From contig JAKFYB010000029.1 of NCBI GenBank assembly GCA_021731085.1, forward strand, positions 1-42,053: a stretch of 42,053 nucleotides of DNA, given 5' to 3'. This document shows positions 20,555 through 34,292 of the stretch, in pieces (position 1 is the stretch's first letter; the number at the start of each line of letters is the position of its first letter). The notes beneath the pieces were generated by a model, which was given only the letters and a program-made list of their open reading frames with translations, was not told the DNA's origin and made no database searches. The translations under genes were made by a program, and so were the position numbers. This DNA is from Dehalococcoidia bacterium. Its GTDB lineage: Bacteria; Chloroflexota; Dehalococcoidia; DSTF01; JACRBR01.

Positions 20555-20578
20555 CTACAGGTTCATCAGGAGATGATG

Positions 20579-22162
20579 ATGCGACGGTTTCTTGTCGCGT
20601 GTTTGGCGTTGACCGCGGTCGTTGCCGCCAGCACGCAATCCTTTGCCGCAGAGCCACAGATGGACGCGGCCGACAACGCGGTCTCGTACATAGACGGCAT
20701 ACAGAATGCCGACGGCGGATTCCCGGGGTTTAGCCCGTCGTCGTCGGCGGGTTCGACGCTGGACGCCGTGTTTGCGCTGTCGGCGGCGGGCGTCGACCCG
20801 AAGTCGGTCACGAACGGCGGTCTGGGGCCGGATGACTATCTTGCAACGCAGGCCCCGGCGTTCAGTGCGTCATCGCCGGGATCGGCAGCGAAACTGGTGC
20901 AGGGTGTGCTGACGATGGACCTTGACGAGACGAACTTCGGGTCGATCAACCCGCTGGCCGTGATGCATTCGAACTACACGCCCGGCACGGGCGCGTACGG
21001 GACGGACACCTTCGCGCAGTCGCAGTACATCCTTGCGCTGGATGCCGCCGGCCTTCCGATACCACCGCTGGCTGTGACGTATTTGGCTTCGCTTCAGCTT
21101 GGCAACGGTTCGTGGGAGTACTGCTGCGGGTTCGGCGGCGACACGAACACGACCGCACTGGCAATTCGAGCACTGACTGCGGGCGGCGTTGTGCCAGCCG
21201 ACCCGGACATCGTCGCCGGCATCGCGTTCCTGATGGCGAACCAGGAGGCCGACGGCGGCTTTCCGTATCTGCTGTCGTTTGGCTCGGAGCCAAACTCAAC
21301 GGGCTTTGTGACACAGGCGCTCGTCGCGGTAGGGCAGAACATCGACGCTGGCGGGCCATGGGACAAAGGCGTCGGCCTGACGCCGCAGGCGTTTCTGCTC
21401 GGGTCACAGGATCCGACAACGGGCGCGCTCGAGTACTTCGGCAACGACGACGCATTCGCGACCTACCAGGGGCTCCCCGGCCTGACGCTGGCCGCGTTCC
21501 CGGAACAGGCCGACGTTGACGGCGACGGTCTGCTGTACGCCGCAGACAACTGCGCGACCGTCGCCAATCCCGCGCAGGCGAACTACGACGCCAACTTCAT
21601 CGACCAGACGCCCCCTTCCACGCAAGACGACCTCACCTGGATCATGTCCGACGGCCGTGGTGACGTGTGCGATCTGGACGCCGACAACGACGGCATCGCG
21701 AATGGCGCTGAGGCCACGGGCTGCAACAGCAGCGGCTCTCTGTCTTCCACCAACCGCGACACCGACGGCGATCGCGTCATCGACGGTGCGGAGTGCGCCA
21801 TCGGCACGAACCCCGGCAGCGCGGCGAGCAAGCCGACGCCGGCACAGTGCGCCGCTCATCTCAGCGTTTCGTTGCCAACAGACACCGACGCTGATGGGAT
21901 TCGCGATGCGACAGAGTTCTGCGGGTACATGAGCTCGCGGACGGACAGCGACACGGACGGTGACGGCGCGGACGATGGCTGCGAAGTCGCGTCGTTCAAT
22001 GTCGACACCGTCGTCAATCCCGCCGACATGGGGCTGCTTGCAACCGAGATGCTGCGCGCCGCTCTACCGTCGGCGAAGCTCGCGAACATGGATGTGAACA
22101 AGGACGGTGTGCTCAACCCTGCGGATCAGGGCATCGTCGCAAGCTTGTTTGTGCCGTGCTGA
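20579..22162 (+). CDS. Secreted alpha/alpha-toroid protein with TSP3/dockerin-like tail, probable cobalamin-binding subunit
   Basis: After a signal peptide (cleavage near SFAAEP, residue 23) come about 280 residues of prenyltransferase/squalene-cyclase-type toroid repeats (AVSYIDGIQNADGGFPGF, SLQLGNGSWEYC, MANQEADGGFPYLLSFG), each followed by a Thr/Ser-x-x-A-x-x-A-L helix. The same fold forms the alpha domain of human intrinsic factor and transcobalamin. Residues about 310-465 hold calcium-binding thrombospondin type 3 DxDxDGxxD repeats, and the last 60 resemble a dockerin pair (VVNPADMGLLA, DVNKDGVLNPADQGIVA). It is the first gene after a cobalamin riboswitch and heads an ECF transporter operon, so I infer capture of corrinoids outside the cell. 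Of three consecutive ATGs, 20579 has the best spacing from AGGAG. A terpene-cyclase role is unlikely, because the protein is secreted and no DxDD motif is seen. Confidence 0.8.
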   Translation: MRRFLVACLALTAVVAASTQSFAAEPQMDAADNAVSYIDGIQNADGGFPGFSPSSSAGSTLDAVFALSAAGVDPKSVTNGGLGPDDYLATQAPAFSASSPGSAAKLVQGVLTMDLDETNFGSINPLAVMHSNYTPGTGAYGTDTFAQSQYILALDAAGLPIPPLAVTYLASLQLGNGSWEYCCGFGGDTNTTALAIRALTAGGVVPADPDIVAGIAFLMANQEADGGFPYLLSFGSEPNSTGFVTQALVAVGQNIDAGGPWDKGVGLTPQAFLLGSQDPTTGALEYFGNDDAFATYQGLPGLTLAAFPEQADVDGDGLLYAADNCATVANPAQANYDANFIDQTPPSTQDDLTWIMSDGRGDVCDLDADNDGIANGAEATGCNSSGSLSSTNRDTDGDRVIDGAECAIGTNPGSAASKPTPAQCAAHLSVSLPTDTDADGIRDATEFCGYMSSRTDSDTDGDGADDGCEVASFNVDTVVNPADMGLLATEMLRAALPSAKLANMDVNKDGVLNPADQGIVASLFVPC

Positions 22163-22175
22163 GGACGGTGAACGC

Positions 22176-23237
22176 GTGAATCAGATCGAACAGCGGCGAG
22201 GATTGTTGCATCCGGCGTGCTGGGCGGCGTGGCTTCTCGCCGGTGTGACGTGCGTGATGCTGACCTCGAACCCACTGTATCTCGCGACGCTCGGGTTGTG
22301 TGCGCTCGCCGTGTATGCGGCGTGGCGCCGGCCCGAGCGTCGGGCGCTAGACACGCTGCTTCTGGTCTCGATCGGTGTGGCGCTGCTCACGCTGCCGCTT
22401 AATCTTGCGACGGGTAGCAGCGGCGCGACAGTGCTCTTCACGCTTCCCGAGATTGTGCTGCCGGGCTGGCTCGCGAGTGTGCGGTTCGGCGGCGACGTCA
22501 CGGCAGAGTCGATGCTGTTCGCAGCGACACGCGCGCTCGGATTGATCGCCATCATCGCGATGGTGTGTGCGTTCAATGCGGGCGTCGATCACTTCCGGCT
22601 GCTGCGGCTTGTCCCGGCGAGCATGGCGCAGCTCGGCATCATCCTCACCGTCGGTGTCGTACTTGTCCCCGAAACGATCGCGCGCGCGGCCGCCCTTCGC
22701 GAAGCGCGTATCGTGCGTGGTCATGGCGGTGGCATGGGCACGTACATCGCACTCTTGCTGCCACTACTCGCCGAAGCGCTGGAACGCTCTGTGCAGCGAG
22801 CGGAGTCGCTCGATGCGCGCGGCTTCGGGCGGCTGGCTGCCCAGCGTGATCCGCGCACAGTCATCGTGGTGGTTGCGTGCGTCGCAGGTGCGGCGATCGC
22901 GTTCTTCGCTTCGTACTACGTGGACCATGGCTCCGCCGCCTTCGCGAGTGGTGCTGGGTTGGCGCTTGTTGCCGTTGTGATCGCATGGCGGCAGGGAAGA
23001 ACAGGTGGTGCCGTACGCATGCGCCGCGCACCGCTGCTGCGGCCGGACATCATCGTCGTGGCCGCGAGTGGTTTCGCCGTCGCGACGTTCATGACGATGC
23101 GACAGTTTGGAGTCGGCGGTCTTTCCTACCTTCCCTTCCCAGAGGTCGTGATCCCTGAGTTCGGCATTGCTGCCGCTGCGGGCATTCTCCTGCTTGCCGC
23201 GCCGACCCTGTTCGCCGGTGGAGGGCGGCGGCTGTGA
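22176..23237 (+). CDS. ECF transporter T component (EcfT/CbiQ-like)
   Basis: The protein has about 353 residues with hydrophobic helices at both ends. It carries the coupling motifs of ECF T proteins that contact the ATPases: REARIVRGHG near residue 175 and ESLDARGFG near residue 210 (the Ala-Arg-Gly signature). It would be the permanent membrane scaffold of the cobalamin ECF importer. The start is GTG 22176 with GAGGAC about nine bases upstream, 13 bases after the toroid gene. The C-terminal region contains extra helices (IIVVAASGFAVATFMTM and later) beyond the usual T component length of about 260 residues, so it is somewhat long. It overlaps the ATPase gene (GTGA, 23234-23237). Confidence 0.87.
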   Translation: MNQIEQRRGLLHPACWAAWLLAGVTCVMLTSNPLYLATLGLCALAVYAAWRRPERRALDTLLLVSIGVALLTLPLNLATGSSGATVLFTLPEIVLPGWLASVRFGGDVTAESMLFAATRALGLIAIIAMVCAFNAGVDHFRLLRLVPASMAQLGIILTVGVVLVPETIARAAALREARIVRGHGGGMGTYIALLLPLLAEALERSVQRAESLDARGFGRLAAQRDPRTVIVVVACVAGAAIAFFASYYVDHGSAAFASGAGLALVAVVIAWRQGRTGGAVRMRRAPLLRPDIIVVAASGFAVATFMTMRQFGVGGLSYLPFPEVVIPEFGIAAAAGILLLAAPTLFAGGGRRL

Positions 23238-24829
23238 GCATGGTGCAAGCCCGTGGGCTAACGTTCTCGTACGGATCATCGCCACGCCCGGCGCTTCGCG
23301 ACGTTTCGTTCGATATTCGCGATGGCGAACTCATCGTCCTCGCAGGACCATCCGGCGGCGGCAAGTCGACGCTACTGCGCTGCATCAACGGCCTCATTCC
23401 GCACTTTCACGGCGGCACATTCGGCGGCGAGGTGCAAATCGCGGGCGTTGATACGCGCACCCGGCAACCGCGCGAGCTGGCATCGCTCGCGGGCATGGTG
23501 TTCCAGGAGCCGGAAGCACAGGTCGTCGCGAACACGGTCGAGGACGAGATCATCTTTGGGCTCGAGAACCTTGGCACTCTGCCAGCGGTCACGCGCAAGC
23601 GACTCGAGGAGATGCTCGACGCGCTCTCGCTCGTGCACCTGCGCAATCGCGAGATGACGACGCTTTCCGGCGGCGAACGCCAGCGCGTCGCAATCGCCGC
23701 CGTGCTGACGATGCAGCCCCGCGTGCTCCTGCTCGACGAGCCGACGTCGCAGCTCGATCCGCAGTCGGCGCAAGATGTGCTCGCGAAGGTGGTGGAGCTA
23801 CGTGACGAGATCGGGTTGACCGTAATGGCGGCGGAGCATCGGCTCGAACGGCTAGCGGCGTACGCGGATCGATTCATGACCGTCGGCCACGGTTGTGGCG
23901 TTCGCATGCTCGAACCGCGGGAGGCGATGAGCGAGGATATCTCGGCCCCGCCGGTCGCGCGCATCGGTGCGGCACTTGGCTGGTCGCCGCTGCCGCTATC
24001 GCTCGCGGAAGCCCGCCCGTTCGTGCGTAGTGCGACGGACTCTGTCAGTCCTGACCGCACGCCAATCTCGTCGGGCGACAACGTCGTGATGGTCCAAGGT
24101 CTGCGCGTGACCCTGGGCGAGACGCGCGTCCTGAACGGGATCGACGTTGAGCTGCAAGCCGGCGAAATCGTTGCGCTGATGGGCAGAAATGGTGCCGGCA
24201 AGACGACGCTCCTCCGCGCGATCGCCGGGCTGATTCCGGGATCACGCGCGAGCATCGCGTTCGCCCGGGAGGCCGAGGGCCGCGAGTTCTACCGGCATGT
24301 CGCTTACGTCGCCCAAGATCCCGCTGCGATGTTGTACGCGTCGACGGTGCGGGCAGAGATCCTGGATGTGCTCAACGGCACGCGGCGTGATGGTTCCGTC
24401 GACGACGCGTTCCATGAGTGGCAGCTGCACGACATCGCGGATGCAAATCCGCGTGACCTGAGCGTAGGCCAGCGGCAGCGCGTCGCACTCGCGGCGATGC
24501 TCGCTGGTGCGCCGGAGCTCATCTTGCTCGACGAGCCGACGCGAGGCATGGATGCGCGCACGGCAGATCTACTCGTCGCGAACCTGCAAATACGTCGGTC
24601 AGCGGGCGCCTGCGTCGTGCTCGCTAGTCACGAAGTCGAGCTTGCCGCCCGCTGTGCTGACCGCGTAATCCTCCTTGCCGATGGCGACGTAATCGACGAC
24701 GGTCCGCCGGCGAAGGTGCTCAGCGGTTCTCTCGCCTTCGGTACGCAGGCCAACAAGCTGTTCGGCGGCGATGTCTTAACTGTGGAAGACGCGCTCGCAT
24801 TCACGCGGTCGGCGGAGTTCGCGCGATGA
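23234..24829 (+). CDS. Fused double ATPase of ECF transporter
   Basis: This is a 531-residue protein made of two complete ABC ATPase domains. The first (residues about 5-235) has Walker A GPSGGGKST near 37, signature LSGGERQRVAIA, and Walker B LLLDEPTSQLDP. The second (about 285-515) has Walker A GRNGAGKTT near 316, signature LSVGQRQRVALA, and Walker B LILLDEPTRGMD. This corresponds to EcfA1 and EcfA2 fused into one chain, a form common for ECF importers in high-GC Gram-positive-type bacteria. It powers the neighbouring T and S components. The start is GTG 23234 (an ATG follows two codons later). The stop overlaps the DUF4430 gene (ATGA). Confidence 0.94.
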   Translation: MSMVQARGLTFSYGSSPRPALRDVSFDIRDGELIVLAGPSGGGKSTLLRCINGLIPHFHGGTFGGEVQIAGVDTRTRQPRELASLAGMVFQEPEAQVVANTVEDEIIFGLENLGTLPAVTRKRLEEMLDALSLVHLRNREMTTLSGGERQRVAIAAVLTMQPRVLLLDEPTSQLDPQSAQDVLAKVVELRDEIGLTVMAAEHRLERLAAYADRFMTVGHGCGVRMLEPREAMSEDISAPPVARIGAALGWSPLPLSLAEARPFVRSATDSVSPDRTPISSGDNVVMVQGLRVTLGETRVLNGIDVELQAGEIVALMGRNGAGKTTLLRAIAGLIPGSRASIAFAREAEGREFYRHVAYVAQDPAAMLYASTVRAEILDVLNGTRRDGSVDDAFHEWQLHDIADANPRDLSVGQRQRVALAAMLAGAPELILLDEPTRGMDARTADLLVANLQIRRSAGACVVLASHEVELAARCADRVILLADGDVIDDGPPAKVLSGSLAFGTQANKLFGGDVLTVEDALAFTRSAEFAR

Positions 24830-25845
24830 GGACAGTCGCGTTCCTGCTCGCAGTCTTATCCTTCGCCGTTGTCGCCTTCGCATTGCCTTCCTCGTCCCTC
24901 GCAGGCTCCGGTGGCGGTTGTAGCGGCACTGCGGGAAGTGACGTGCATCGAGCCGGGCTCGTCGTCTCGTTCGGTGGCCAGCAGCCAACGCAGCGATTCT
25001 GCGTGGAGTTCACCGAGGAGTCGATCTCCGGCATCGAACTGCTCCAACGTTCCGGGTTGAGTCTCGTCACACAGATTGAAGGCGGTCTTGGTGCGGGCGT
25101 ATGCGCTATCGATGGCATTGGCAGCGATGATCCGACCAACTGCTTCAAGTACTCGACGACGCCGCCTTATCGATACTGGGTGTACTTTCGCTGGACGGGC
25201 GCCGATTCGAACGGCGCCTGGCAGTTCTCGAACGTCGGTGCCTCGACGCGCGAGATCCATGACGGCGACATCGACGGTTGGTCGTGGGGCAACGGAGCGA
25301 ACGCACCGCCGGAATCGCCCGACGGCGTACTCGATCTGCCGACCCCGACGCCACTTCCGCCCACACTGACTCCGACGCCAGTTCAGGCGACCAACACGCC
25401 ACGCCCGACGGCTACACGCGCAACGACAATTACACCGGTTCCGGCTGATACAGCCGCGCCAAACGCGACCCTGTCACCAGCGACTCCAGAGGTGGTAGCG
25501 ACTCCGACCGTTTCATCAGGGTCCGATGGCATACCGCCTCCGCCCTCGCCCGCCGACGCCGAGGTGGCCGGCGCGCAGGCGACGCCACGGCCAGCGTTGA
25601 CCGTGACGGGAGCGAGCAGCGTGGCATCGGTCACACTCACGCCTGCCGCCACGCCGACGGCGCCCAGCGGGGTCATCGTCGTCGACCCAACGCAAGCACG
25701 CGACAACGCCGCGACTGCCGAGCGAGCCGACGGTGACAGCGGGAGCGGCGGCAGCAGCGCCCTGATCGGATTTGCGCTCGTCGCCGCCGTGATAACAGGA
25801 GGCGCTGGCGTCATCCTGTATCGGAGGCGTAGTGGCGATGCTTGA
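24826..25845 (+). CDS. Membrane-anchored DUF4430 (transcobalamin beta-domain-like) protein
   Basis: A signal peptide (cleavage near LAGSGG, residue 28) is followed by a single DUF4430-type domain (residues about 40-165). It shows AGLVVSFGGQQPTQRFCVEF, then SGIELLQRSG, GVCAIDGIGSDDPTNCFKY and YRYWVYFRWTGADSNGAWQFSNVGAS, the order seen in the C-terminal beta domain of transcobalamin-like proteins. A stalk of about 130 Pro/Thr/Ala-rich residues follows, then a transmembrane helix (about 305-328) and a short basic tail (YRRRSGD). The domain would thus be displayed above the membrane near the ECF transporter. Being encoded between the ECF ATPase and S component in a B12-riboswitch operon, it most likely helps capture cobalamin, possibly as partner of the toroid protein at 20579. 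Confidence 0.87.
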   Translation: MRTVAFLLAVLSFAVVAFALPSSSLAGSGGGCSGTAGSDVHRAGLVVSFGGQQPTQRFCVEFTEESISGIELLQRSGLSLVTQIEGGLGAGVCAIDGIGSDDPTNCFKYSTTPPYRYWVYFRWTGADSNGAWQFSNVGASTREIHDGDIDGWSWGNGANAPPESPDGVLDLPTPTPLPPTLTPTPVQATNTPRPTATRATTITPVPADTAAPNATLSPATPEVVATPTVSSGSDGIPPPPSPADAEVAGAQATPRPALTVTGASSVASVTLTPAATPTAPSGVIVVDPTQARDNAATAERADGDSGSGGSSALIGFALVAAVITGGAGVILYRRRSGDA

Positions 25846-26662
25846 GGACGCACGTGCGCTGCCAATCCAACGGCGCACGCGACCTGTTCTGACGCTGTCG
25901 GCGCTCACGCTCACGGTGGCGAGCGGTGTCGGCGTGGCCGCGTTCTTGTATCCGTTCATCTTGTCGTCCGCGCCCCGCGCAGAAAGTCAGGCGCACGCCG
26001 GCGATGCGCCGCTGATGTTCGGCATTCTCGTCGCGCTGGCGGCAATGCTCTTTCTCGTCGAGATGTCATCCGGGGGGGTGAACGCGAAGGTCGCATCGGC
26101 GCTCGCCGTCCTGACCGTCGCCGCCGCAGCCTTGCGCGTGCCCGTCCTGCCCGCTGGTGGTAGCGCCTTCTTCTTTCTCATCATGCTCGGTGGATACGTC
26201 TTCGGGCCGCGGTTCGGGTTCCTGCTTGGTGCGCTGGCTCTGTTTGTGTCGTCGTTCATCAGCGGTGGCTTCGGTCCGTGGGTGCCGTACCAGATGTTCG
26301 CGTCCGGGTGGCTCGGACTGACGGCCGGGTGGCTCGGAGCCTTGCGTCCGCAGCTCCACCGTGCGCCATTGGTCGAGGTCGGTGTCCTAACCGTATTCGG
26401 CGTCGCGTGGGGCTTCCTGTTCGGCGCGATCATGAACCTCTGGTTCTGGCCATATGTGGCTTCTGGAGAATCCGTGTCGTGGGTTCCCGGTCTTGGTCTT
26501 GCCGAAACGATGCGCCGTTACTGGGCCTTCTACCTGCTGACCTCTGCTGCGTGGGACTTCTGGCGTGGCATCGCCAACGTCGTGCTCATTGCGCTGGCGG
26601 CACGGCCCGTGCTGGCGATCCTCGTGAGGTACCGGGAGCGATTCACTGTGCGCTGGGCGTAG
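25832..26662 (+). CDS. ECF transporter S component, probable cobalamin specificity (CbrT-like)
   Basis: This is a 276-residue membrane protein with six or more helices; the family-like part includes GGSAFFFLIMLGGYVFGPRFGFLLGALALFVSSFISGGFGPWVPYQMFASGWLGLTAGWLG, the glycine-rich middle typical of ECF substrate-binding subunits that are CbrT-like. It begins 14 bases before the DUF4430 gene ends (GTG 25832; ATG 25838 is an alternative), so it is translationally coupled and is the last gene of the riboswitch-controlled operon. The T and A components are encoded upstream. Cobalamin or a precursor is inferred as the substrate from the riboswitch and not from any residue. The N-terminal extension of about 30 residues is hydrophilic. 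Confidence 0.85.
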   Translation: MAMLEDARALPIQRRTRPVLTLSALTLTVASGVGVAAFLYPFILSSAPRAESQAHAGDAPLMFGILVALAAMLFLVEMSSGGVNAKVASALAVLTVAAAALRVPVLPAGGSAFFFLIMLGGYVFGPRFGFLLGALALFVSSFISGGFGPWVPYQMFASGWLGLTAGWLGALRPQLHRAPLVEVGVLTVFGVAWGFLFGAIMNLWFWPYVASGESVSWVPGLGLAETMRRYWAFYLLTSAAWDFWRGIANVVLIALAARPVLAILVRYRERFTVRWA

Positions 26663-26759
26663 CGCTGTCACCCCGTCGGCTGGCGAAACGTCAATTTCTG
26701 CAACAAATTCTGGGCAAATCCTGCGTTTCTCGGCGAACCGTGCTTGAGTCAGCGCACAG

Positions 26760-26800
26760 CTTAGCTTAGGGTTGCCAGCGAGATTAGCACCAGCTATTCC
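26760..26800 (+). promoter_or_regulatory. Promoter/operator of the HtaA gene (iron-box-like)
   Basis: TTGCCA (26772-26777) and TATTCC (26795-26800) are 17 bases apart. The spacer holds TTAGCACCAGCTA (26784-26796), and TTAGCTTAGG (26761-26770) lies just upstream. Read from 26761, 12 of 19 bases match the DtxR/IdeR iron-box consensus as I remember it. The same arrangement (CTTAG, 13 bases, ATTAGCAC) occurs before the second heme unit at 29826. Confidence 0.5.
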
Positions 26801-26826
26801 AACACAGGGTCTGAGGAGGAGCCGGG

Positions 26827-28638
26827 ATGCTGCGGAAGCAGGGCAAGAGCAGATTGGTGGTAGCAGCACTGGCCGCGGCCGTTGCGCTGGGATTTGGCGC
26901 GATGACATGGAGTAGCCCCACGGTCGAGGCCGCGCCGCAGAACATAACGGGAGGATACCTGGATTGGGGCGTGAAGGCCTCGTTCAGAAACTACATCTTG
27001 TTCGGCCCAGCGGCGGGTTCGATCACGCTCTCGCAGGGAGCCCTGCAGAACGGCGATGGTACCTTCCGATTCCCCGCTGTTGCGACAGGTTCGTACGACA
27101 GCGACACCGACACCACAACATCGTCATACTCAGGCAAGGTGTTCTTTACGGGGCACTCCGGCGCGCTCGAGATGGAAGTCACGGACATTCGGGTACAGAT
27201 CACCGGCACGACAGGCCTGCTTATCGCCGATGTCGTCAGCAGGGGTCTGGCACCGCCTGGGCTCCCAGTGGCGTACCCCGATGTTGAATTTGCAGCGTTG
27301 GATCTGACGAGTGTGCCGCCCAACGAGACGGGAACATCGGTCTCGTGGACAAACATGCCCTCGATACTAACCGCCGCTGGTGTACCTGCCTTTGCGGACT
27401 TCTACGCGGAGGGCACGGCTCTCGACCCGGTGTCACCGACGCTCCAACTCGAGCCAGAACCAATCGGTGACCTGACGTGGAAGATCTCGCAGCACGCCTG
27501 GACGAGCAGCAGCCTTTCGCCCTCGCACGCAACAGGCGCCCCGGCCGCGAAGGACGTGGTCAACGGGTTCGTCTGGCCGACGTTCGACGTGATCAACTAC
27601 GACCGCATCACGGGCGCGACGGAACTCTCGTTTGATGGATCGATAACCCTCGGCAACGTGATGCAGGGCGGCTACCGCATCATGTTCGACAACCCACGGA
27701 TCATCATCGATGAGGACAACGACGGCGAGATTCACGCCGATGTCTCGTACTGCGTCTCGGCCGCAGCCTGCCTCAATCCATGGGTTGGGCCAGCGCTCGA
27801 CGTCACGCTGACTACGTTCATCGCGAATCCGGGCGGAATCACAGACAACGGCAGCCACGTCTCGTGGACGTTCACGCCGGAGTACTCCTCCGTCGGCAAC
27901 CAGTTCGACCAGGAGTTGATCGACACGCTGGACGCCAGCCTTCGGGGTCACTTCCGCGCGACGGGCGGTGCATCAGACCCGAACAAGCCCCCGGCGCCGA
28001 TCTCTGTCCAGTTTGATTACGTCTGTCCGTCGGCCCAGAACTCGGACGCCAACTTCATCGAGAATAGCCCCTTCGTAAACGACGATGGCACGATGGTTCG
28101 TTCCGACACGGCCGGTAACGCCTGCGATGGCGACGACGACAACGACGGTCTCAACGACCTCATTGAGCTTGGGACTCCGTGCGCTTCGGCCACGGGCGCG
28201 ACCAACCCGGACGTCCGCGATTCCGACGGCGATCGCGTGCTGGACGGCATCGAGTGCACGATGAACTTCGACCCGGCAAGCGCGCTGAGCAAGCCAACCG
28301 TCGCACAGTGCGTCACTCAGTCAGGCGCGCCGATAGGCATGGACACGGACGGCGACAAGATTCGCGACTACATTGAGGTCTGCTACTACGGCACCGGCCC
28401 GACTGTCGTGGACACGGATGGCGACGCTGGGGCAACCGGCGCGAAGGATGGATGTGAAGTGGCTTCGCTGAATCCTGATCGGATCGTGAACGTCGCCGAC
28501 ATGGGTATGCTTGCGTCGGCGATCGGCAACCCCACGTTCCGGATCGCAAACGTCGACATCAACAAGGACGGTGCGTGGAACCCCGCCGATCAAGGGATCC
28601 TGGCGGGCTTCATCGCGCCAGCCGGACAGTGTCCATAA
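26827..28638 (+). CDS. Secreted HtaA-domain hemophore with TSP3/dockerin-like tail
   Basis: A signal peptide (cleavage near VEAAPQ, residue 36) precedes an HtaA heme-binding domain at about 40-200 (ITGGYLDWGVKASFRNYILFG, GDGTFRFPA, FTGHSGALEMEVTDIRVQI). Tyr56 and His110 occupy the positions of the Tyr/His pair needed for heme binding in Corynebacterium HtaA. A second HtaA-like domain (about 210-400, LTWKISQHAWTSSSL, LGNVMQGGYRIMFDNPRIII) lacks the Gly-His of the first. Then come calcium-binding DxDGDxxxD repeats (about 420-540) and a dockerin-like pair (RIVNVADMGMLAS, DINKDGAWNPADQGILAG). There is no membrane anchor, so it is probably released or held by its tail. GAGGAGGAG precedes ATG 26827. 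It stands beside heme oxygenase and HmuTUV genes and is followed by a strong hairpin. Confidence 0.88.
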   Translation: MLRKQGKSRLVVAALAAAVALGFGAMTWSSPTVEAAPQNITGGYLDWGVKASFRNYILFGPAAGSITLSQGALQNGDGTFRFPAVATGSYDSDTDTTTSSYSGKVFFTGHSGALEMEVTDIRVQITGTTGLLIADVVSRGLAPPGLPVAYPDVEFAALDLTSVPPNETGTSVSWTNMPSILTAAGVPAFADFYAEGTALDPVSPTLQLEPEPIGDLTWKISQHAWTSSSLSPSHATGAPAAKDVVNGFVWPTFDVINYDRITGATELSFDGSITLGNVMQGGYRIMFDNPRIIIDEDNDGEIHADVSYCVSAAACLNPWVGPALDVTLTTFIANPGGITDNGSHVSWTFTPEYSSVGNQFDQELIDTLDASLRGHFRATGGASDPNKPPAPISVQFDYVCPSAQNSDANFIENSPFVNDDGTMVRSDTAGNACDGDDDNDGLNDLIELGTPCASATGATNPDVRDSDGDRVLDGIECTMNFDPASALSKPTVAQCVTQSGAPIGMDTDGDKIRDYIEVCYYGTGPTVVDTDGDAGATGAKDGCEVASLNPDRIVNVADMGMLASAIGNPTFRIANVDINKDGAWNPADQGILAGFIAPAGQCP

Positions 28639-29112: not shown

Positions 29113-29760
29113 CTACAGTCCCTGCAGGAGCCGCGTGTTCAGCTCGTACGCCAGCAGGACTTCGTCGATGATCCGCCGACGCTCTTCGGCATCCCACGGC
29201 GCGGCATCGAGACGGGCGCGATACTGGTCCTTGAACGCCGTAGCGTCAGCAATGCCGTCGAATGTGTAGAACTTCGCGCCGTTGCCGTTGAAGTTGTAGG
29301 TCCGGCGGATGATCTCACCAATGTGTTGGCCGCCCGACAGGTCTCCCATGTAGCGCACGTAGTGGTGCGCGACGAAGCCGCCCGCCCGCGTCAGGCATGC
29401 CTCTCTGATGCGATCACAGTAGACCGTGGTCGCGCTTGTCGGCGTGATCTTGTTCGCCCACTGTGCGCCGAGAAGATATGCCAAATCCGCCTCAAGCGCC
29501 GGCGTACGGCGAAGGTCGGCGGAGATGAACGTTCCGGCGACAGGGTCGGACGCCATCGCATCGCCCGCGTGCTCCAGCTCGCGATAGACGAAGTAGTGCT
29601 GGGCGACGAGCCGGGCATACGCCTCGAGGGCTGACTTCCCGGCGAGCAGATCGCGCACGAACGCCGACGATTGCGCGTCGCGGTGGGCCGTCATGCTTGC
29701 GGCGCGAATGTCTGCCGAGAAGGCGGTGTGGGCGGCGGCTTGTTCCGTCGTCGCGGCCAT
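29113..29760 (-). CDS. hmuO: Heme oxygenase (biliverdin-producing)
   Basis: This is a 215-residue all-helical protein with the heme oxygenase hallmarks: proximal histidine His26 in SMTAHRDAQ, and the distal-helix GDLSGGQ at 139-145, followed by YNFNGNGAKFYTF, as in Corynebacterium HmuO and the eukaryotic HO-1 family. It cleaves heme to biliverdin, CO and ferrous iron using an external reductant. No membrane tail is present, so it is cytoplasmic. It is divergent from the operon encoding the surface protein and HmuTUV, and its promoter region (a possible -35 TTGTGC and -10 TAAGAT on the minus strand) overlaps the palindrome at 29845-29858, suggesting shared control. AGGAG lies about nine bases before ATG 29760. 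Confidence 0.94.
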   Translation of the reverse strand: MAATTEQAAAHTAFSADIRAASMTAHRDAQSSAFVRDLLAGKSALEAYARLVAQHYFVYRELEHAGDAMASDPVAGTFISADLRRTPALEADLAYLLGAQWANKITPTSATTVYCDRIREACLTRAGGFVAHHYVRYMGDLSGGQHIGEIIRRTYNFNGNGAKFYTFDGIADATAFKDQYRARLDAAPWDAEERRRIIDEVLLAYELNTRLLQGL

Positions 29761-29907: not shown

Positions 29908-31356
29908 GTGAACGTGTCCCTGCGAATGCCGCTTCTCAGCCTGCTCGCCATCCTGTTCCTCGCAGCCTTCGTTGCCGTTGTTCCGTCAATCAGAACGGCG
30001 TTTGCAGAGAGCGGTTCAGCTTCGGATGGGACGAGGACGCTGACCGTGTCCGACATCTCGGGCCTGAATGTCGATGGGGACACGGTGACGGTCAGCGGCT
30101 CCGGCTATGACATGGAGAAGGGCGTCTACGTCGCGTTCTGCATCGTGCCCGTGCCCGGCCAGCGGCCGACGCCCTGCGGCAACGTGGACATCAGCGGCGG
30201 CAGCACTTCGGCTTACTGGATTTCCTCAAACGCTCCTCCGTATGGCGATGGCCTGGCGCTCCCGTACGGATCCGGTGGCACGTTCTCGGTGGAGCTGTCG
30301 CTCGGTGCGACGTTCAACAATCCACCGAACGGGTCAGTCGATTGCCGCGTCGTATCGTGCGCGGTCGTGACGTTCAGTGACCACACGCGCCTGTCCGATC
30401 GCTCGCAAGACGTGATCGTGCCGGTGACCTTTGGTGGAGAAGAGCCCACCGCCACGAACACGCCACCGACGCCGCCGACCTCGACGCAGACGCCGGTCCC
30501 TGGCGCCTCATCGACGCCGGTACCGCAATCGACGCAGGCGCCAGCTACAGCAGGGCCATCTGCCGCCGCGAGCGCGACGGTGGTCGCCGTCGTCCCAACG
30601 TCACCATCAGGTGCTTCGCCCACAGGCGTAGGTACCAGCCCACGGCCGACGTTGTCGTCTACCCAGAAGACGGCAGTACCGCAGGGAACACCGCGTCCAG
30701 GCGCGAGCGTCGTCCCCACCGCCACGGGCCTCCCGGCGGTTACCACCAAGATCTCGAACAACGGACGCACGGCAACCGCTGGCGAGCTCGTCCTCACATC
30801 TTCGAAGGTTCGCCTCGAAGGTGTTGGCGGTGAGGTCAAGATCGAGGGGAAGGGCTACAACGAGTCGAAGGGCGTCTATGTCGCGCTTTGTGCGGTACCG
30901 GAGAAGGGCAAGGCCCCGAAGGTCTGCGCCGCGGGCGACGGTGTTTCGGCGTGGATTTCGTCGAACCCGCCGGACTACGGCATCGACCTGGCGGAGCCTT
31001 ACGAAGACGGCGGCAGCTTCGGAGTCGAACTCGCGTTGAAGCCGGTGATCGATACTAAAACGGACTGCCGCGTCGTTGCATGCGCGATCATCACGCGCAA
31101 TGACGACACCGCTGCCGAGGATCGTTCACAAGACGTCATCCTGCCCGTGAGCTTCGGCACGAATGCGAGCAGCGGAAGCACGCCAAAGAGTGGCGTGCAG
31201 GGCGCCGTGGCCTCCCCGACTGATGGCGGCGGTGGTGGTGGCGCGAATCCCATCGTCTGGGTCGTGCTCAGTGTCATCGCGTTGGGAGCGCTCGGTGGCG
31301 GCGCATATGGCATCTACCTCTACCAGCGCGGTCGCGTGCAGAGTGCGGGTATCTGA
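29908..31356 (+). CDS. Membrane-anchored surface protein with two neocarzinostatin-like modules
   Basis: A signal peptide (cleavage near TAFAES, residue 35) is followed by a module at about 45-175, a Pro/Thr stalk (about 178-280), a second copy of the module (about 290-418), a Gly-rich linker and a C-terminal transmembrane helix (about 446-470) with a short basic tail. Each module reads V-x-G-x-G-Y...KGVYVA(F/L)C...C...(Y)WISSN(A/P)P(P/D)YG...(E)PY..GG(T/S)F.VEL...DCR(V)V(S/A)CA(V/I)(I/V)T...DRSQDVI(V/L)PV(S/T)F. The two cysteine pairs and the closing DC...C...VSF resemble the neocarzinostatin/actinoxanthin immunoglobulin-like fold. Its gene heads the HmuTUV operon, so it probably receives heme from HtaA or the medium; direct heme binding is not shown. 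The start is GTG 29908 (GTG 29914 or ATG 29926 are possible). Confidence 0.82.
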   Translation: MNVSLRMPLLSLLAILFLAAFVAVVPSIRTAFAESGSASDGTRTLTVSDISGLNVDGDTVTVSGSGYDMEKGVYVAFCIVPVPGQRPTPCGNVDISGGSTSAYWISSNAPPYGDGLALPYGSGGTFSVELSLGATFNNPPNGSVDCRVVSCAVVTFSDHTRLSDRSQDVIVPVTFGGEEPTATNTPPTPPTSTQTPVPGASSTPVPQSTQAPATAGPSAAASATVVAVVPTSPSGASPTGVGTSPRPTLSSTQKTAVPQGTPRPGASVVPTATGLPAVTTKISNNGRTATAGELVLTSSKVRLEGVGGEVKIEGKGYNESKGVYVALCAVPEKGKAPKVCAAGDGVSAWISSNPPDYGIDLAEPYEDGGSFGVELALKPVIDTKTDCRVVACAIITRNDDTAAEDRSQDVILPVSFGTNASSGSTPKSGVQGAVASPTDGGGGGGANPIVWVVLSVIALGALGGGAYGIYLYQRGRVQSAGI

Positions 31357-32375
31357 TGTCCAGCATGAACACTCGACGAGCCGCGCAGCTATTCGCGATA
31401 ACAAGCCTCGTCGTCGTGGTCCTGAGCGCATGCAGCACCGCGACCAGCGGTAGCGATGTCGATCAGGATCCGCAGCCGACAATATCCGTCGTCGATGACA
31501 CAACCGGCGCAACGCTGCCCGTGACCGTCACGTCATCGGATGGCCGCGAAGTGACCATCACCGACACGAGCCGCATCGTTCCGCTGTGGGGCAGCCTCAC
31601 GGAGATTGCGTTCGGACTTGGCCTCAGTGAACAGGTGGTAGCGCGCGACGTATCGTCAACACTCGAGGAAGCACAAGACCTTCCCGTCGTTACGCGCGCG
31701 CACGACGTTTCGGCGGAGTCCGTGTTGGCCCTTCGACCGACCGTCGTCCTTGCGTCAGAGAACACCGGCCCGTCAAGCGCCCTCGCCCAGATCCGCAACG
31801 TCGGAATTCCCGTCATCACCTTCAAGGAGCCCGGCAGCATCGAAGACATCATCCCGCGCGTGCACGAGATGGCCGCCGCGCTGGGTGTGCCGGAACGGGG
31901 CAACGTGCTGGCAGCCCAGATCGAGCAAGAGATCGCCGCCGTGCGTGAAGGCGTCCCCCCAGGCGAATCCCCCAGGGTCGCCTTTCTCTACATGCGCGGA
32001 CAGGTCGGCGTCTACCTGATCGCAGGACCGGGTTCCGGTGCGGATTCGATGATCGCTGCAGCCGGCGGCATCGACGCAGGCACGGCGATGGGCCTCGACA
32101 ATCCCTTCACGCCGCTCACGAGCGAAGCGCTCGTGCAGTCTGCGCCGGACGTCATTCTCATGACGAGCACCGGCCTTGAGTCCGTCGGCGGGATCGAGGG
32201 CCTGCTGGAGATCCCGGGTGTCGGGCAGACACCCGCCGGCGCGAATCGACGGGTCATCACAGTCGAGGACGGGCTGCTATACAGCTTCGGGCCGCGCACG
32301 CCGGTCGCGCTCGAACTCCTCATCCAGAAACTCTACGAGCAGCCCGCGGCTTCCGCCGAACCGGTCATAGAATAG
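31356..32375 (+). CDS. hmuT: Heme ABC transporter substrate-binding lipoprotein (HmuT-like)
   Basis: A lipoprotein signal with VVLSAC (Cys26) anchors a 339-residue type III (BtuF/FhuD/HmuT) binding protein. Its two lobes are visible in SRIVPLWGSLTEIAFGLGLSEQVVARD and in FLYMRGQVGVYLIAGPGSGADSMIAAAGG, with LLEIPGVGQTPAGANRRVITVEDGLLYSFGPRTPVALE near the end. This pattern is that of heme-binding HmuT homologues of actinobacteria. The gene begins at the last base of the preceding stop (TGATG) and is followed five bases after its stop by the permease. Heme rather than B12 is inferred from the neighbours (HtaA, heme oxygenase); the fold alone would also allow corrinoids or siderophores. Confidence 0.9.
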   Translation: MSSMNTRRAAQLFAITSLVVVVLSACSTATSGSDVDQDPQPTISVVDDTTGATLPVTVTSSDGREVTITDTSRIVPLWGSLTEIAFGLGLSEQVVARDVSSTLEEAQDLPVVTRAHDVSAESVLALRPTVVLASENTGPSSALAQIRNVGIPVITFKEPGSIEDIIPRVHEMAAALGVPERGNVLAAQIEQEIAAVREGVPPGESPRVAFLYMRGQVGVYLIAGPGSGADSMIAAAGGIDAGTAMGLDNPFTPLTSEALVQSAPDVILMTSTGLESVGGIEGLLEIPGVGQTPAGANRRVITVEDGLLYSFGPRTPVALELLIQKLYEQPAASAEPVIE

Positions 32376-32379
32376 AAAC

Positions 32380-33474
32380 ATGACGACACCCGAGACCGTG
32401 GTCGGCGAGCAGGCGATGCGTCGCGCGCCGCTGCGCCGTGGTTCGCTTACTCCGCCTGTCCTGCTTGGCGGGCTGAGCGTTGCGCTGATTATCGCCGTGA
32501 TTGTCGCCGGCGCATCGGGCGCGTACCCCATCTCGCCGGGCGAAGTCATCGGCTCGCTGCTGCACGTGATCGGCATCGACGTCGGCACACGCGCGGACAC
32601 AGTGGGCGAAGATGTGCTCTGGGAGATCCGCTTCCCACGGGTCGTGCTCGCCGTCCTCGTCGGCGCATCCCTGGGGTGTGCGGGCGCCGCGATGCAGGGC
32701 ACATTCTCGAATCCGCTGGCCGAGCCCGGCATCATCGGCGTGTCGGCTGGCGCGGTCGTGGGCGCTGTCGCGCAGATCGTCATGGGGTTCACGTTCGCTG
32801 GTTCAACATGGAGCATCACGCTAGCGGCCTTCATCGGTGGCCTCGTCACGGTGATGCTCGTGTACCTGGGATCACGTTCGAACGGGAAGACGGAAATCGT
32901 CACACTGGTTCTGACGGGCGTCGCCGCGAACGCCTTTGCGGGAGCCCTCATCGGCCTGTTGATCTTCTTCTCCGATGACGCCCAACTGCGATCGATCACG
33001 TTCTGGACGCTCGGCAGCATGGCGCAGGCGACGTGGGCGAAGGTTGCCGTGGTGATGCCGGTGGCCCTCCTTGGCGTCGCTCTCGCGTGCGTGCATGCGT
33101 CCAAGCTCGACCTGCTGGCGTTGGGTGAGCGCCCGGCGCGCCACCTCGGCGTAGACGTCGAGCGCCTTCGCGTGACGATGCTCGTGATCGTCGCCGTGCT
33201 CACCGCGGCAGCAGTCGCGGTGTCTGGCATCATCCTGTTCGTGGGCCTCGTCATCCCACACCTCATCCGCATGGTCTCCGGCCCCCGCCATCAACTGCTG
33301 CTGCCGGCGTCGGCGCTTGCGGGTGCGGTGATTCTCGTCGTCGCCGACACGGTGGCGCGCACGATCGCAGCGCCGTCGGAACTGCCGCTTGGTGTGCTTA
33401 CAGCGCTCATCGGTGCGCCGTTCTTCCTCTGGCAACTGCGTCGGACGCGCGCGCAGCAAGGCGGCTGGGCATGA
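32380..33474 (+). CDS. hmuU: Heme ABC transporter permease (HmuU/BtuC family)
   Basis: This is a 364-residue membrane protein of the FecCD family with about ten helices. Family motifs are clear: EIRFPRVVLAVLVGASLGCAGAAMQGTFSNPLAEPGIIGVSAGA, then FWTLGSMAQATW, GILFVGLVIPHLIRMVSGPRHQLLLP in the form GIILFVGLVIPHL, and the final DTVARTIAAPSELPLGVLTALIGAPFFLWQL. It forms the membrane channel for the HmuT cargo. The N terminus has about 25 extra residues that are hydrophilic. Its stop overlaps the ATPase start (ATGA, 33471-33474). Confidence 0.95.
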   Translation: MTTPETVVGEQAMRRAPLRRGSLTPPVLLGGLSVALIIAVIVAGASGAYPISPGEVIGSLLHVIGIDVGTRADTVGEDVLWEIRFPRVVLAVLVGASLGCAGAAMQGTFSNPLAEPGIIGVSAGAVVGAVAQIVMGFTFAGSTWSITLAAFIGGLVTVMLVYLGSRSNGKTEIVTLVLTGVAANAFAGALIGLLIFFSDDAQLRSITFWTLGSMAQATWAKVAVVMPVALLGVALACVHASKLDLLALGERPARHLGVDVERLRVTMLVIVAVLTAAAVAVSGIILFVGLVIPHLIRMVSGPRHQLLLPASALAGAVILVVADTVARTIAAPSELPLGVLTALIGAPFFLWQLRRTRAQQGGWA

Positions 33475-34292
33475 AATGGGCGCGTTCTACGCTGCAGGTG
33501 CCACAGCCGGTGGCTATGGGCGATGTGCTGCTCCAAGCCCGCGGAGTGTCCGTAAGCTACGGCCCGTTTCCCATCCTGCACGACGTCGATCTCGTAGCGC
33601 GGGCAGGCGAAGTCGTTGCGCTTGTCGGCCCGAATGGATCTGGAAAGTCGACGCTGCTCGCCGTTCTCGCCGGCGACCTCGAACCAGCACAGGGATCCGT
33701 CGACGTGTTCAGCGAACGCATCACTGAGTGGTCAAATGCTGAGTTGGCATTGCGCCGCAGCGTGTTGCCACAGCATGTCGCCGTCAGCTTTCCCTTCCTC
33801 GTGGACGACGTCGTTCGTATGGGGCGCGCGCCGTGGCTGAACACAGACGCCGAAGCGCAGGATGATCTGGTGGTCGATGAATCTCTTCGGCAGACCGAGA
33901 TCGATGCTCTTCGTGGACGACAGTTTCCGTCGCTCTCCGGCGGCGAACGCGCGCGCGTCGCTCTCAGCCGTGTCCTCGCGCAGCGAACGCAGCTTCTCCT
34001 GCTCGATGAGCCCACCGCAGCGCTCGATGTGCACCATCAGGAAATGGTGCTGCGACTCGTCAAAGAACGTGCGTCTCAGGGCGCCGGCGCCGTTGTCGTC
34101 CTGCACGACCTGAGTGTGGCGTCTTCGCACGCCGACCGCGTCGCCGTGCTCTCGCAAGGGCGCATCATTGCCGACGGTCCGCCACGCGATGTCTTCGCAC
34201 CTGCACTGTTGAGTGAGGTGTATCGGCACGAGATCGAGGTCATAGCGCACCCTCGTACGGGTGAGCCGATCATCGTGCCCAAGCGGGACTAA
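33471..34292 (+). CDS. hmuV: Heme ABC transporter ATPase (HmuV)
   Basis: This is a 273-residue ABC ATPase of the FecE/BtuD type. Walker A is GPNGSGKST (near residue 54), the Q-loop lies at LPQHVAVSFPF, the signature is LSGGERARVALSRVLA, Walker B LLLLDEPTAALD and the H-loop VVLHDLSVA. The FPFLVDDVVRMGRAPW segment is characteristic of HmuV heme ATPases. It starts inside the permease stop (ATG 33471), which gives about 17 extra residues compared with an internal GTG or ATG at 33516. It is the last gene of the surface protein-HmuTUV operon. Confidence 0.95.
   Translation: MKWARSTLQVPQPVAMGDVLLQARGVSVSYGPFPILHDVDLVARAGEVVALVGPNGSGKSTLLAVLAGDLEPAQGSVDVFSERITEWSNAELALRRSVLPQHVAVSFPFLVDDVVRMGRAPWLNTDAEAQDDLVVDESLRQTEIDALRGRQFPSLSGGERARVALSRVLAQRTQLLLLDEPTAALDVHHQEMVLRLVKERASQGAGAVVVLHDLSVASSHADRVAVLSQGRIIADGPPRDVFAPALLSEVYRHEIEVIAHPRTGEPIIVPKRD

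Follow-up and report, generated by a model that had tools for sequence, protein, structure and literature searches.

The two secreted proteins compared here end in the same type of tail, and this tail is probably (at a likelihood of roughly 0.78, judged from sequence) a portable surface-docking module that holds secreted proteins on anchored cohesins. Within this module, thrombospondin type 3 (TSP3)-like calcium repeats would form a stalk, and a double F-hand resembling type I dockerins, closed by a Cys clasp, would form a plug at the extreme C-terminus. After secretion, the plug would bind cohesin modules on membrane- or lipid-anchored proteins, which comprise single cohesins and one polycohesin. 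In this way, secreted proteins by the dozen, unrelated to one another, could be held at the cell surface though they have no transmembrane (TM) segment or sortase anchor of their own; an HtaA heme binder and an ECF-associated toroid protein are among them.

The shared tail and its carriers

Both proteins are encoded in the window, the whole 42,053-nucleotide stretch of Dehalococcoidia DNA that was analysed. Their open reading frames were confirmed (20573/20579-22162 and 26827-28638), as was the earlier note's claim that their C-termini align, with the motifs it quoted present in both and 49-50% identity over approximately 210 residues. Local alignment of the two tails scores 454, compared with a mean of 48 and a standard deviation of 8.5 for 1000 shuffled sequences, the best of which reached 82 (z ~48), while the passenger parts in front of the tails align at chance level and are unrelated. 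Thus, the shared tail is real and modular. The tails and the genes around them are as follows.

20573-22162, + strand: secreted protein with signal peptide, alpha/alpha-toroid domain and tail (SQHop_cyclase_N 24.5 bits; NCBIfam SCO2321_fam 2.2e-16)
21479-22159, + strand: tail 1, TSP3-like repeats and dockerin (alignment; whole-tail profile match from 21518, E 1.1e-80)
22107-23237, + strand: membrane protein, putatively of the ECF T-component kind (no family match)
23234-24829, + strand: fused double ATPase of an ECF-type transporter (ABC_tran and ECF_ATPase matches)
24826-25845, + strand: SCO2322-like secreted partner with Pro/Thr linker and C-terminal TM anchor, without the tail (NCBIfam SCO2322_fam 2.7e-06)
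25832-26662, + strand: ECF transporter substrate-specific component (PF12822 1.5e-09)
26827-28638, + strand: HtaA-domain heme-binding protein (predicted) with signal peptide and tail (PF04213 HtaA 1.6e-49)
26953-27435, + strand: first HtaA domain, part of the passenger (PF04213 match)
27997-28635, + strand: tail 2, TSP3-like repeats and dockerin (whole-tail profile match from 28024, E 1.1e-79)
29113-29760, - strand: heme oxygenase (PF01126 1.5e-54)
29908-31356, + strand: secreted two-domain protein with linker and C-terminal TM anchor, without the tail (sequence)
31356-34292, + strand: heme/corrinoid-type ABC importer, comprising binding lipoprotein, FecCD permease and ATPase (PF01497, PF01032, PF00005)

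The ligands assigned to the two passengers fared differently. Heme binding by the second protein is well supported as a prediction, given its membership of the HtaA family and the adjoining heme oxygenase and ABC importer genes. The label of B12 binder given to the first protein finds no direct support. Its domain is similar to squalene-cyclase toroids and to SCO2321, and transcobalamin is not among its matches; a transcobalamin/intrinsic-factor-type binder was considered and rejected, the PDB search returning only squalene-cyclase-like and other toroids. The locus of this protein is that of an ECF transporter and includes SCO2321/SCO2322-like proteins, and the partner at 24826-25845 has no match in the PDB. 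The protein at 29908-31356 resembles, in a comparison by eye, the domain that separates the HtaA repeats in actinobacterial HtaA.

A search of the own genome (3.58 Mb in 52 contigs) with the first protein returned dozens of strong matches to the tail. In the stretches around these matches, the tail is present at 60 bits or above on 44 frames, nearly all with a signal-peptide-like start. In 43 of them it ends no more than 20 residues from the stop codon. The passengers include S8 and C25 peptidases, penicillin amidase, beta-lactamase-fold, metallophosphoesterase and glucose/sorbosone dehydrogenase proteins, along with kelch, NHL, PD40 and RCC1 propellers, LamG and CARDB; dockerin-bearing glycoside hydrolases are absent among the tail passengers scanned, a subset of those in the genome. 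In 12 further frames, a dockerin-like module is present but the tail is incomplete. As a C-terminal module, the tail is generic, being shared by over 40 secreted proteins that are otherwise unrelated, and this comes near the outcome that the earlier note named as fatal to its proposal, a tail ubiquitous on hundreds of unrelated secreted proteins, albeit with tens rather than hundreds. Neither window tail is the closest relative of the other, and a tree built from 40 tails places them on different branches, so that a recent duplication of one into the other did not occur.

Two loci depart from the common arrangement. On contig C8 (L025:6986-8679), the tail gene is apparently split over two overlapping frames, and the frame with the tail continues for approximately 130 residues past it, making this the sole tail that is not C-terminal. 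On contig C2 (36337-36480; L037:5122-5484), a short frame with no passenger ends with 49 dockerin residues that are 69% identical to the heme protein's tail, and it is probably what remains of a former tail gene.

Architecture of the tail

The columns of the tail alignment begin with TSP3-like D/N-rich repeats; a pair of F-hand-like loops comes next, and a Cys closes the tail. The dockerin parts of the two window tails are placed as follows.

21974-22159, + strand: dockerin module of tail 1 (Dockerin_1 25.2 bits in the genome search, over the cut-off; C-terminal Cys)
21992-22027, + strand: dockerin loop 1 of tail 1, F-hand-like, SFNVDTVVNPAD
22091-22126, + strand: dockerin loop 2 of tail 1, F-hand-like, DVNKDGVLNPAD
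28447-28635, + strand: dockerin module of tail 2 (Dockerin_1 18.5 bits, under the cut-off; C-terminal Cys; profile of the dockerin part matches PDB dockerins)
28465-28500, + strand: dockerin loop 1 of tail 2, SLNPDRIVNVAD
28555-28590, + strand: dockerin loop 2 of tail 2, DINKDGAWNPAD

The match to Pfam Dockerin_1 (PF00404; gathering cut-off 22.9 bits) is borderline for single tails. Tail 1 scores 25.2 bits in the genome search and 20.1 bits on the whole protein, tail 2 scores 15.4-18.5 bits and approximately nine of the genome's tails exceed the cut-off; on the whole proteins, Pfam reports TSP_3 (29.9 bits) with a weak Dockerin_1 for the first and HtaA with a weak Dockerin_1 for the second. 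When a profile of the last ~63 residues is compared with the PDB, type I dockerins rank first (2y3n_B 9.1e-9, 2ccl_B 7.6e-8, 1ohz_B 1.3e-7), and the whole-tail profile matches the type 3 repeats of COMP and thrombospondin-2 at its front and dockerins at its end. Tail 1 also exceeds the TSP_3 cut-off of 25 bits; tail 2 alone is unmatched by TSP_3, and the family profile matches COMP and thrombospondin-2. These profile matches favor the proposal that the tail is a Ca2+-binding module, in that they point to a dockerin/TSP3 module of the calcium type.

The two duplicated F-hand calcium loops follow the pattern D-x-N-x-D-G-x-x-N-x-x-D, and both contain the motif A-D-x-G-x-x-A. Loop 2 is canonical. 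In loop 1, 39 of 40 tails have Ser at position 1, where dockerins usually have Asp, and 23 of 40 have Arg at position 6. A pair of Cys residues flanks the dockerin in all 40 readable tails, one just ahead of loop 1 and one at the C-terminus, and this pair would form a disulfide clasp. AlphaFold2 models of the two window tails (pLDDT 28) and of the two dockerins (pLDDT 50) were too poor for use.

Cohesins and the position of the anchor

The dockerin-like end has candidate partners in the same genome. Pfam Cohesin marks four sites, and a cohesin profile built from the genome's own cohesins (contigs C22 and C26) and those of relatives, which matches solved scaffoldin cohesins in the PDB (3l8q_A 1.1e-17), finds 16 modules in 10 of the genome's frames at 20 bits. 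Strong matches outside the sequences from which the profile was built are those on C23, at C1:78407 and in the C11 polycohesin, a frame of 2505 aa with a TM segment at its end and no Pfam match by itself. A signal segment, together with a TM segment and basic tail at the C-terminus, marks the cohesin proteins of C22, C1, C23 and C17, while those of C26 and C18 are lipoprotein-like with a lipobox; no carbohydrate-binding module (CBM) was found on the cohesin proteins scanned. On C1, the gene for a TM-anchored cohesin immediately follows a tail gene. The same cohesin layouts recur in relatives, including TM-anchored polycohesins with up to nine modules. The search for a cohesin-like receptor that the earlier note had proposed thus yields about 16 modules in 10 frames, several of them membrane- or lipid-anchored.

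Several features of these cohesins merit separate mention. On C22 (L021:4745-8041), a 671-residue protein that ends with a partial cohesin and a dockerin adjoins a TM-anchored single cohesin, and the two are possibly an adaptor and its anchor; similar pairs are found in five stretches from relatives (L053, L057, L061, L064 and L065). Two polycohesin frames (L104:6421-13935, on C11, and L062:9966-16616) contain TM-like segments in their interior and, midway along the frame, a second signal-like stretch, after which more cohesin and a TM segment follow; they look like two proteins fused in frame. The alignment of own and related cohesins also has two invariant Cys residues and a GR motif, which to our knowledge are not expected of classical cohesins. 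Perhaps this Cys pair forms a disulfide that matches the Cys-clasped dockerins.

Comparison with orthologs shows what stands in the place of the tail elsewhere. Nine relatives (L111-L119) have orthologs of the first passenger in which a linker, as a rule rich in Thr and Pro, leads to a C-terminal TM segment with basic residues behind it, often with an LPxTG-like motif ahead of the TM segment; none of the nine has the tail. Relatives of the HtaA protein in Nocardiopsis and Streptomonospora, which stood in for near orthologs, end in LPNTG and a TM segment. Among the 60 relatives searched, HtaA was found in the window's genome only, which suggests lateral gain, and the HtaA gene, in the region window:26827-34292, may have been acquired from actinobacteria. 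In both passengers, the tail occupies the position of a surface anchor elsewhere, and this natural exchange, the strongest functional evidence, points to surface retention. The suggestion that the tail attaches both proteins to a common surface partner is thus plausible, because the genome encodes cohesins and the tail stands where orthologs bear a membrane or sortase-type anchor. Binding of tail to cohesin, its calcium dependence and the matching of particular cohesins to particular dockerins are inferred.

Across 294 genomes of the class, with dockerins and cohesins called at 1e-5, cohesins occur in 56 and dockerins in 49; both are present in 39 genomes, from 18 families, cohesin only in 17, dockerin only in 10 and neither in 228 (Fisher 6e-26, kinship of genomes ignored). 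Within the order, two genomes of family f3 have neither cohesin nor dockerin. In family f4 (G012-G017), dockerins number between 4 and 65 per genome and cohesin matches between 4 and 23, which apparently indicates a second cohesin-dockerin network of large size.

Alternative readings and known systems

An alternative possibility is that the tail is merely a calcium-stiffened, disulfide-clasped spacer or stability cap whose dockerin-like end does not bind cohesin. TSP3 repeats are known structural calcium modules, and position 1 of loop 1 is off the dockerin norm, both of which accord with such a role. However, the tail replaces membrane or sortase anchors in orthologs, whereas proteins with a mere spacer would have no anchor, and its extreme C-terminal position in 43 of 44 frames and the co-occurrence of cohesins with dockerins also argue against a spacer, making it unlikely. 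Strict C-terminal position, the conserved last motif ISPSGQCPG and the many secreted carriers could suit a C-terminal sorting signal for a secretion or attachment machine, perhaps cleaved, like the T9SS CTD or PEP-CTERM. Such a signal is less probable still, since the tail has no hydrophobic or basic terminal segment, its conserved end lies directly after the second F-hand and bears the paired Cys, and the similarity to dockerins spans most of the tail end.

The earlier note had taken the tail as the mark of a platform for tetrapyrrole capture. In favor of this, both window proteins are tailed and lie beside uptake transporters. As a platform specific to tetrapyrroles, the proposal is contradicted by the 44 copies on unrelated passengers and could hold only for a sub-assembly on a single scaffoldin; the separate branches of the two window tails and the lack of support for tetrapyrrole binding by the first passenger in the PDB search also weigh against it, and it is the most improbable of the alternatives. 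Surface docking on cohesins thus remains the preferred reading. Its widest form, a general display network in which the disulfide-clasped TSP3-dockerin tail took over from covalent or TM anchoring in some 45-55 secreted proteins, nutrient receptors for heme and an ECF substrate among them, and docks them on membrane-anchored single cohesins and polycohesins, has about an even chance of being correct.

Cohesin-dockerin pairing is best known from the cellulosomes that digest cellulose. Like the type I dockerins of clostridial cellulosomes (PDB 1ohz, 2y3n), the tail has duplicated F-hand loops and a C-terminal position on secreted proteins, but it differs in the Ser at position 1 of loop 1, in Val-Ala and Pro-Ala at loop positions 10-11, in the Cys pair at both ends, in the TSP3-like stalk in front and in its non-cellulolytic passengers. 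Unlike in the cellulosome, no glycoside hydrolases were seen among the passengers scanned and no CBM on the cohesin proteins scanned here. Noncellulosomal cohesin/dockerin modules are reportedly few per genome in most cases. The tail has in common with that class (Peer et al. 2009, cited in PMC6461901 and PMC8542988) a proposed use outside cellulose breakdown, with dozens of modules here.

The closest precedents are predicted complexes. The planctosome of freshwater Planctomycetes, a non-cellulosomal cohesin-dockerin surface complex, likewise combines TSP3 repeats with an adaptor of the cohesin-dockerin type and a protein that provides the anchor (PMC6461901); it comprises a few peptidases and a lamin-tail-domain anchor (PMC6461901), in contrast to the more than 40 varied tailed proteins, TM-anchored and lipoprotein cohesins, single polycohesin and nutrient binders found here. 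The cellulosome-like complex of Cloacimonadota shares dockerins on S8 and C25 peptidases and a large polycohesin, but also has GH18/GH57 enzymes, CBM2/CBM3 on its scaffoldin and a conserved C-terminal attachment domain, none of which was seen here (PMC8542988). Actinobacterial HtaA proteins share the heme-binding passenger, and the nearest relatives found among them end in LPNTG and a TM segment where the dockerin tail stands here. The earlier note had not seen such a platform described, yet non-cellulosomal cohesin-dockerin assemblies have already been published (PMC6461901, PMC8542988). Literature searches returned no paper joining cohesin and dockerin with Dehalococcoidia, cohesin, dockerin and scaffoldin with Chloroflexota, or HtaA with dockerin. 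The non-cellulosomal cohesin-dockerin assembly is therefore known in outline; the novelty here lies in the scale, in a Cys-clasped dockerin carried by a TSP3 stalk, in sockets with TM anchors and in nutrient receptors as passengers.

The proposed network would match a large cellulosome in scale, with cellulases apparently absent. In orthologs, the swap of an LPxTG/TM anchor for a docking tail provides a clean, testable case of a network gaining new members, and the compact Cys-pair dockerin is a potentially useful docking part, if binding holds. Ultimately, if the proposed docking is true, it would carry cohesin-dockerin pairing beyond polymer degradation, into nutrient capture and numerous further roles of secreted proteins.
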